A stretch of 52,884 bases of DNA. It comes from Formosa algae. Its GTDB lineage: Bacteria > Bacteroidota > Bacteroidia > Flavobacteriales > Flavobacteriaceae. Below, one piece after another: positions 39,993 through 41,103 of the stretch (position 1 is its first letter; the number at the start of each line of letters is the position of its first letter). Both the position numbers and the translations under genes were made by a program. A model generated the notes under the pieces. It searched no databases, was not told the origin of the DNA, and saw only the letters and a list, made by a program, of their open reading frames with translations. The stretch spans positions 1 through 52,884 of the forward strand of contig NZ_LMAK01000002.1 in NCBI RefSeq assembly GCF_001439665.1. Reading direction: 5' to 3'.

Positions 39993-41103
39993 TTATAAGT
40001 TATTAGTATCTTCTGTTTTTTGTCCCATCATCATTAAATAGGCTTTTAAAAAGGCATCTATATTTCCGTCCATAACAGCATCTACATTTCCAGTTTCGTG
40101 TGCTGTTCTAACATCTTTTACTAGTTTATATGGATGCATTACATAGTTTCGAATCTGACTTCCCCACTCTATTTTCATCTTTCCTGCTTCTATATCTTCG
40201 CGTTGTGCTAATTGTTTCTGCAATTCTATTTCGTACAACTGAGATTTTAACATTTGAAGGGCTCAAGATCTGTTATCGTGTTGCGATCTTGTTTCTGAAC
40301 ATGAAATTTGAATACCTGTTGGTTTATGTGTTAACTGCACTTTAGTTTCTACCTTGTTCACATTTTGACCGCCCGCTCCGCTTGAACGTGCCGTAGTAAT
40401 TTCAATATCTGCAGGATTAATATCTATCTCTATCGTATCATCAACCAAAGGATAAACATACACTGAAGCAAAACTTGTGTGTCGTTTCGCATTACTATCA
40501 AACGGAGAAATTCGTACTAAACGATGCACACCATTTTCTCCTTTTAACCAACCAAAAGCAAAATCGCCTTCTATCTCTAAGGTTACTGTTTTTATTCCGG
40601 CTACATCGCCTGCTTGATAGTTTAATTCTTTGATTTTAAATCCGCTTTTTTCGGCATACATTAAGTACATGCGCATAAGCATATTTGCCCAATCGCAACT
40701 TTCTGTTCCTCCAGCCCCTGCTGTAATTTGCAATACCGCGCTTAAACCATCGCCTTCTTCAGACAACATATTTTTAAACTCGATATCTTCTAAAAGGGTT
40801 TGTGCTTTTTCGAATTGTTGGGTAACTTCTTCTATAGACGTATCGCCTTCTTTGTAGAACTCGTACAAGACTTCTAAATCTCCTACGAGTGTTGTTGCAG
40901 TATTAAAATCTTCTACCCATTTCTTTTTAACACGAAGTGATTTCATAATCACTTCAGCTGCTTTTGAATCGTTCCAAAAATTAGGATCGAAGGTTTGCTC
41001 CTCCTCGTTTTGTATTTCTATGAGTTTGACATCTATGTCAAAGATATTGCCTTAACGACGTAAGGCGGTGTGAAAGATCTTTAATTTGATCTGCTGTTAT
41101 CAT
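39993..41103 (-). CDS. prfB: Peptide chain release factor 2, with programmed +1 frameshift and an extra in-frame UGA
   Basis: RF2 ends translation at UGA and UAA. The gene reads [21 protein letters not shown], then CTT-TGA-C (41043-41037), the canonical self-regulating +1 shift site. The second frame continues from GAC through SPF (stop recognition) and GGQ (about residues 244-246). At codon 280 a zero-frame TGA (40265-40263) interrupts [26 protein letters not shown]; the sequence then runs on in the same frame for 89 codons with perfect RF2 character ([18 protein letters not shown]). Full length would be 369 aa (E. coli 365). One base change from AGA or CGA would make this TGA. Real nonsense mutation, readthrough or sequencing error cannot be told apart here. 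Confidence 0.9.
40263..40265 (-). other. prfB: Second, zero-frame UGA inside prfB (codon 280)
   Basis: Context AGA TCT TGA GCC CTT on the minus strand. The 89 codons after it are in the same frame and are clearly the RF2 C-terminus, so this is a substitution and not an indel. The codon normally specifies a basic residue or Gln here (E. coli KNKDQAMKQMK aligned with DNRS-stop-ALQMLK). Confidence 0.9.
41037..41052 (-). promoter_or_regulatory. prfB: prfB programmed +1 frameshift site
   Basis: Minus strand AAGGCAATATCTTTGAC: the slippery CTT followed by TGA and C, with a purine-rich AAGG element upstream in place of the AGGGGGT of E. coli. When RF2 is scarce the ribosome shifts by one base at CTT-T and continues in the second frame, giving autogenous control. 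Confidence 0.93.

Follow-up and report, generated by a model that had tools for sequence, protein, structure and literature searches.

A second in-frame UGA in the release factor 2 gene of a Formosa algae assembly: probably a wrong or unrepresentative base

Introduction

Release factor 2 (RF2) reads UGA and is normally essential. In the draft genome of the flavobacterium Formosa algae (NCBI RefSeq assembly GCF_001439665.1), its gene, prfB, contains two UGA codons: one at a +1 shift site near the start, and another, in the shifted frame, at residue 280. Is the second UGA a further step of self-control, a damaging mutation, or an error of the assembly? An earlier note, made from the letters alone, had left these three options side by side. 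It turns out that either a miscalled base or a harmful mutation fits better, and that an evolved second feedback is not supported. If the base is right, RF2 would govern the decoding of two UGA codons of its own gene in a wild organism, and the gene would show how far RF2 can drop where UGA stops are rare, a matter that bears on UGA reassignment. If the base is wrong, the case illustrates that reads should come before mechanism wherever a draft genome shows an isolated stop in an essential gene. A literature search, with subscription papers mostly outside its reach, found no natural prfB described as carrying a second in-frame UGA.

The assembly contains 4.29 Mb in 82 contigs and is 99.73% complete. 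The window (the whole stretch of DNA analysed, 52,884 nucleotides of NZ_LMAK01000002.1) is one contig of this assembly.

Organization of the prfB gene

Re-reading of the sequence confirmed the coordinates and counts given in the earlier note for prfB and for both of its UGA codons (Table 1). The gene begins with ATG at 41103-41101 on the minus strand, and 21 codons precede the first UGA (codon 22, 41040-41038), which lies in CTT TGA C. In the +1 frame, GAC is residue 22 and is followed by 347 codons and by the final TAA at 39995-39993. The sole stop within this frame is the second TGA (residue 280 of 369), beyond which 89 codons follow; the product has 369 residues if the ribosome shifts and UGA 280 is decoded.

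The prfB model TIGR00020 matches across the second UGA with an E-value of 4.2e-144 and a score above its cut-off (480 bits, cut-off 370), and this is therefore not a chance reading frame. The piece 5' of UGA 280 matches Pfam PCRF (1.7e-52) and positions 2-58 of the RF-1 domain, with the GGQ motif of RF2 at residues 244-246. The piece 3' of UGA 280 matches RF-1 positions 61-116 with 33.8 bits, just below the cut-off of 35, and aligns with residues 287-361 of the 365 residues of Escherichia coli RF2 (1gqe_A). These profile and E. coli matches bear out the claim that a genuine RF2 C-terminus follows the second, in-frame UGA. An RF2 truncated after residue 279 would be without the second half of the RF-1 domain.

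Table 1. Positions of prfB and of the features within it (window coordinates)
Feature	Position	Strand	Remarks
prfB (RF2), +1 programmed frameshift gene	39993..41103	-	TIGR00020 match, 480 bits
RF2 +1 shift site AAGGCAATATCTTTGAC, with weak SD-like AAGG	41037..41053	-	same 17 bases in 5/5 congeners
7-base inverted repeat CAAGATC/GATCTTG, 14-base loop, 3' arm ending in the TG of TGA	40264..40291	-	
Private in-frame TGA, residue 280, GCC next	40263..40265	-	CGA or AGA (Arg) in 5/5 congeners
89 codons, RF2 C-terminus (second half of the RF-1 domain)	39996..40262	-	no private residue vs 5 congeners

The first UGA and the programmed shift

The earlier note had taken the first UGA for the known self-control site of RF2, and rightly so: CTTTGAC is common to all five congeners, hence to all six genomes of the genus. 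As in the known +1 programmed frameshift of prfB by which RF2 regulates itself, the slippery CTT TGA C with its UGA at codon 22 is preceded by a Shine-Dalgarno (SD)-like stretch, and RF2 continues onward in the +1 frame. The SD-like stretch of the genus, AAGGCAATATCTTTGAC, is weak; among the 13 family relatives compared (the listed rows whose prfB match held TGA), 12 have GAGGAGGTATCTTTGAC and one has GAGGAGATATCTTTGAC. The shift efficiency in the genus may be low, to judge from an SD-like stretch weaker than that of the family relatives. The stretch AAGGCAATATCTTTGAC is present in six of the six genus genomes, and AAGGCACTATCTTTGAC is found at loci L053 and L038. The one family relative of the 13 that is without GAGGAGGTATCTTTGAC at this place carries GAGGAGATAT.

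Codon 280 in other genomes

Altogether 117 prfB loci were aligned, 116 of which reach codon 280; two of these 116 are the present prfB itself, leaving 114 others. All 114 have a sense codon at the site (K in 49, R in 37, N in 13, T in 13, I in one and E in one), and position 280 is tolerant in that any of these six residues occurs there in relatives. The stops remaining in the prfB alignments (11 rows) all represent the natural end of the gene, at query residues 338-345 of 347. The nearest named prfB matches, among the best 80 of at least 573 loci, include isolates or metagenome-assembled genomes of Bizionia, Olleya and Psychroserpens. In the family search, a prfB match was obtained in 396 of 397 genomes, and codon 280 was checked in the 150 listed of these 397, plus the present genome and congeners G003 and G005. 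A TGA occurs somewhere in 13 of the 150 listed rows; all 13 sequences were retrieved, and their post-shift matches are free of stops, which places the TGA 5' of the shift point in each. The second UGA is thus not a conserved autoregulatory codon, being kept in none of the 114 other loci and in none of the 150 family relatives listed (30 loci sit in both sets, and the species may overlap more).

The earlier note had suggested a comparison with related strains, guessing at AGA or CGA. All five congeners have one or the other: CGA in G001, G003 and G005, and AGA in G002 and G004. An unrooted tree from prfA, prfC, ksgA, rplI, rsmH (G002 without rsmH) and prfB places the present genome with G004 (support 0.957), and nucleotide identity is highest to G004 (0.892), followed by G001 (0.885). 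Since G004 has AGA and G001 has CGA, the original change was from CGA to TGA or from AGA to TGA; the second UGA would accordingly be a one-base change, C to T in the former case and A to T in the latter.

Besides having no private residue (Table 1), the 89 codons downstream of the second UGA have pS values of 0.38-0.69 and pN values of 0.007-0.086 against the five congeners. Only three RF2 residues are private to this genome; all of them lie before the UGA (90, 95 and 157), and none is near it. Comparison with the five congeners revealed no relaxed selection after UGA 280 relative to the part before it. An early loss of translation past 280 would be expected to leave dozens of amino-acid changes, given these pS values and about 218 nonsynonymous sites. 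The C-terminus shows no such decay, and thus UGA 280 is very young, or is read through, or is absent from the organism.

Sequence around the second UGA

Compared with shuffled sequences, no stable RNA structure was found downstream of or around UGA 280 (z 0.02 and -0.29, respectively); the stretch ending at UGA 280 has a z of -1.12. The second TGA completes the 7-base inverted repeat given in Table 1, the full match of which is present in none of the five congeners. Conceivably, this repeat reflects a template-switch (quasi-palindrome) mutation or a hairpin-linked read error, or it may have arisen by chance.

Use of UGA and other interrupted frames

We scanned 399 kb of this genome (270 genes called, by crude calling of open reading frames) for stop usage and for abutting in-frame pairs of frames. 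UGA is the stop of 10 of the 270 genes; in a 400-kb sample of congener G001, scanned alike, it is the stop of 8 of 257. The scan yielded 12 abutting pairs, two of which are joined at TGA, namely prfB and a pair of 69 and 67 codons without Pfam match; the G001 sample contains nine pairs, one of them at TGA. The other 10 pairs of the present genome abut at TAA, and seven of these have ATG 0-4 codons past the stop. In two TAA-abutting pairs (L136 and L145) the halves match two different Pfam families, each nearly at full length, and so represent neighbouring genes, and a further one (L133, 69 and 58 codons) has no Pfam match. In sum, the 12 pairs comprise prfB, nine cases of neighbouring genes, and two cases of short frames without Pfam match. 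Apart from prfB, we found no gene in the 399-kb sample that is clearly broken, by UGA or otherwise. The assembly therefore looks clean, as far as 270 genes, which are too few to exclude rare errors, can indicate.

Other release factors and candidate suppressors

Three class-I release-factor matches were found in the assembly, corresponding to RF1, the RF2 of prfB, and a short protein (a 143-residue open frame) that we infer to be ArfB-like. The earlier note had asked whether the genome encodes another RF2; none was found in the assembly, and prfB is the sole RF2 gene seen. The in-frame UGA thus lies in the only RF2 gene of this assembly.

Among 41 tRNA matches (150 of 420 first-look candidates were scored), no tRNA has a UCA anticodon. 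No tRNA-Sec exceeded the cut-off, and the nine weaker places are tRNAs already listed. The D-arm and anticodon of tRNA-Trp match those of the five congeners, and the whole tRNA is identical to that of G002. A Hirsh-type change in tRNA-Trp was looked for in the alignment with the congeners, four of its six rows, which were on the opposite strand, being compared by eye, and was not found. Reassignment of UGA to sense, or a suppressor tRNA, was considered and rejected, as no UCA anticodon was found among these tRNA matches and no other clearly UGA-broken gene in the 399 kb.

The frames of RF1, RF3, KsgA, L9 and RsmH are all open. In their matched parts, residues private to this genome number three in RF3, two in KsgA (RsmA), three in RsmH (compared with four congeners), and zero in RF1 and L9. 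No compensating loss of RF3, KsgA, L9 or RsmH was found. We chose KsgA, RsmH and L9 because changes in them offset low RF2 in Pseudomonas fluorescens (PMC13245932). In congener G002, a single-contig genome, rsmH appears as two overlapping matches (L269 and L270; C1 2059530-2060419), one of which has an internal TAG, and this suggests a frame break in that gene.

Interpretation of the second UGA

The second UGA is probably a wrong consensus base, or else a variant confined to the material that was sequenced. We favour an error because the genome is a draft of 82 contigs, the gene is normally essential, the base is private, the C-terminus shows no decay, and no suppressor was found. The living strain would then carry Arg at codon 280 and would most likely make RF2 of normal length with no recoding other than the +1 shift. 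Counting against an error, the contig extends 40 kb on one side of codon 280 and 12.6 kb or more on the other, none of the three other private residues of RF2 is near the codon, and the 399-kb sample holds no further clearly broken gene. Isolated calls of prfA as a pseudogene provide a likeness, and a base rate that also speaks for an error: in PMC12421855, prfA is annotated as a pseudogene in 34 genomes of a 12,753-genome set, at inconsistent places and mostly in single-genome species, and sequencing errors are left as a possible cause. There, a release-factor gene is likewise broken where relatives are not, but those calls would need a frameshift, whereas here the gene is prfB and the change a one-base nonsense change. 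A recent true mutation would predict the identical comparative pattern, and the sequences of relatives cannot separate it from an error; the odds that we attach to all of these explanations are a judgement, made without computation.

The chief alternative to an error, which we consider possible but unlikely, is that the opal mutation is genuine, arose very recently and suppresses itself. As RF2 falls, readthrough of UGA would rise, and RF2 would settle at a lower level: shifted ribosomes would decode UGA 280 at a few percent through a near-cognate tRNA (Trp being expected) while RF2 is scarce, yielding a full-length RF2 in which a tolerant position holds a substituted residue, and the rarity of UGA stops would make the shortage bearable. 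The six residue types found at position 280 in relatives and the few UGA stops, both here and in G001 (10 of 270 and 8 of 257 genes), speak for such an allele. A steady-state feedback model that assumes a shift of 6-50%, a UGA readthrough of 0.1-14% at normal RF2, an inert truncated RF2 and a fully active readthrough product predicts RF2 at 4-49% of normal if readthrough responds to RF2, versus 0.2-36% if it is fixed. Rates of this order appear in the literature: in E. coli, TGA can be read through at up to 14% (PMC11126739), and a TGA reporter was read through at 6% in prfB+ Bacillus subtilis (PMC7918605). For Flavobacterium johnsoniae, PMC12421855 gives a low shift efficiency and 7% RF2-specific stops, hence a low demand for RF2; removal of the shift, expected to increase RF2, did not obviously alter fitness there (PMC8710568). 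Use of UGA and loss of the shift are correlated in PMC12421855, and not significantly so in PMC13245932. On the other hand, UGA 280 occurs in no relative checked, and a compensating change was looked for and none was found. RF2 is normally essential, and so costly a mutation should be rare in sampled strains. Moreover, mutations that only lowered the prfB shift in P. fluorescens gave fitness defects (PMC13245932).

If the allele were real, RF2 would be held at a fraction of its normal level, tolerated because UGA terminates no more than some 4% of genes, and this might be a first step to the loss of RF2. A laboratory precedent is the RF2 opal mutation with autogenous suppression of Kawakami and Nakamura (1990), reportedly that of the Salmonella supK suppressor mutant. 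That mutant likewise has a UGA within the RF2 frame, and here, too, RF2 would control its own UGA decoding if the codon is real; the Salmonella allele, however, is reportedly a laboratory suppressor, whereas the present one is known from a genome sequence alone. A natural flavobacterium with an opal codon in its only RF2 gene, and hence with double self-control by the +1 shift and by UGA readthrough, would be the wild counterpart of the laboratory mutant, a prospect that we put forward only tentatively.

The remaining explanations are less probable still. Were the mutation real and working RF2 scarce or lacking, survival would call for an unrecognised trans-acting suppressor, such as a change in a ribosomal protein, rRNA, RF1 or an elongation factor. 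The low use of UGA would cut the cost, and low RF2 in P. fluorescens was offset by changes affecting RsmA, RsmH or RplI (PMC13245932), but KsgA, RsmH, RF3, RF1 and L9 are open here with zero to three private residues each in their matched parts, and the motifs of 16S helix 34 and of the 23S GTPase centre look ordinary in the one assembled operon seen, so that we regard such a suppressor as improbable. More doubtful by far is the second feedback step raised in the earlier note, i.e. programmed UGA readthrough evolved on top of the programmed shift. Such a step makes sense for a factor that itself reads UGA, and in the model the control would be somewhat stiffer (gain sensitivity 0.37-0.50 vs 0.52-0.67); nevertheless, UGA 280 exists in one assembly only among the relatives checked, the nearest congener, G004, has AGA, and neither the sequence downstream, where no stable structure follows, nor that around or ending at the codon has an unusual structure (z values above). 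If readthrough at low RF2 does occur, a recent mutation may simply have brought it about, without any adaptation for control. Equally far-fetched is a split RF2, in which translation stops at UGA 280 and restarts at an AUG four codons on, the two pieces then joining. The sequence UGA GCC CUU CAA AUG does place an AUG nine bases past the stop, but many relatives use the same AUG as an ordinary codon with no stop ahead of it, and the break sits inside the RF-1 domain. We know of no split RF2.

Genes adjacent to prfB

An ArsC-family gene (39638-39979, minus strand) begins 13 bases after the prfB stop, and the two genes probably share one transcript. On the 5' side of prfB, the same strand carries three genes (41165-44487, minus strand), for a circularly permuted ATP-grasp protein, an Alpha-E domain protein and a transglutaminase-like protein.
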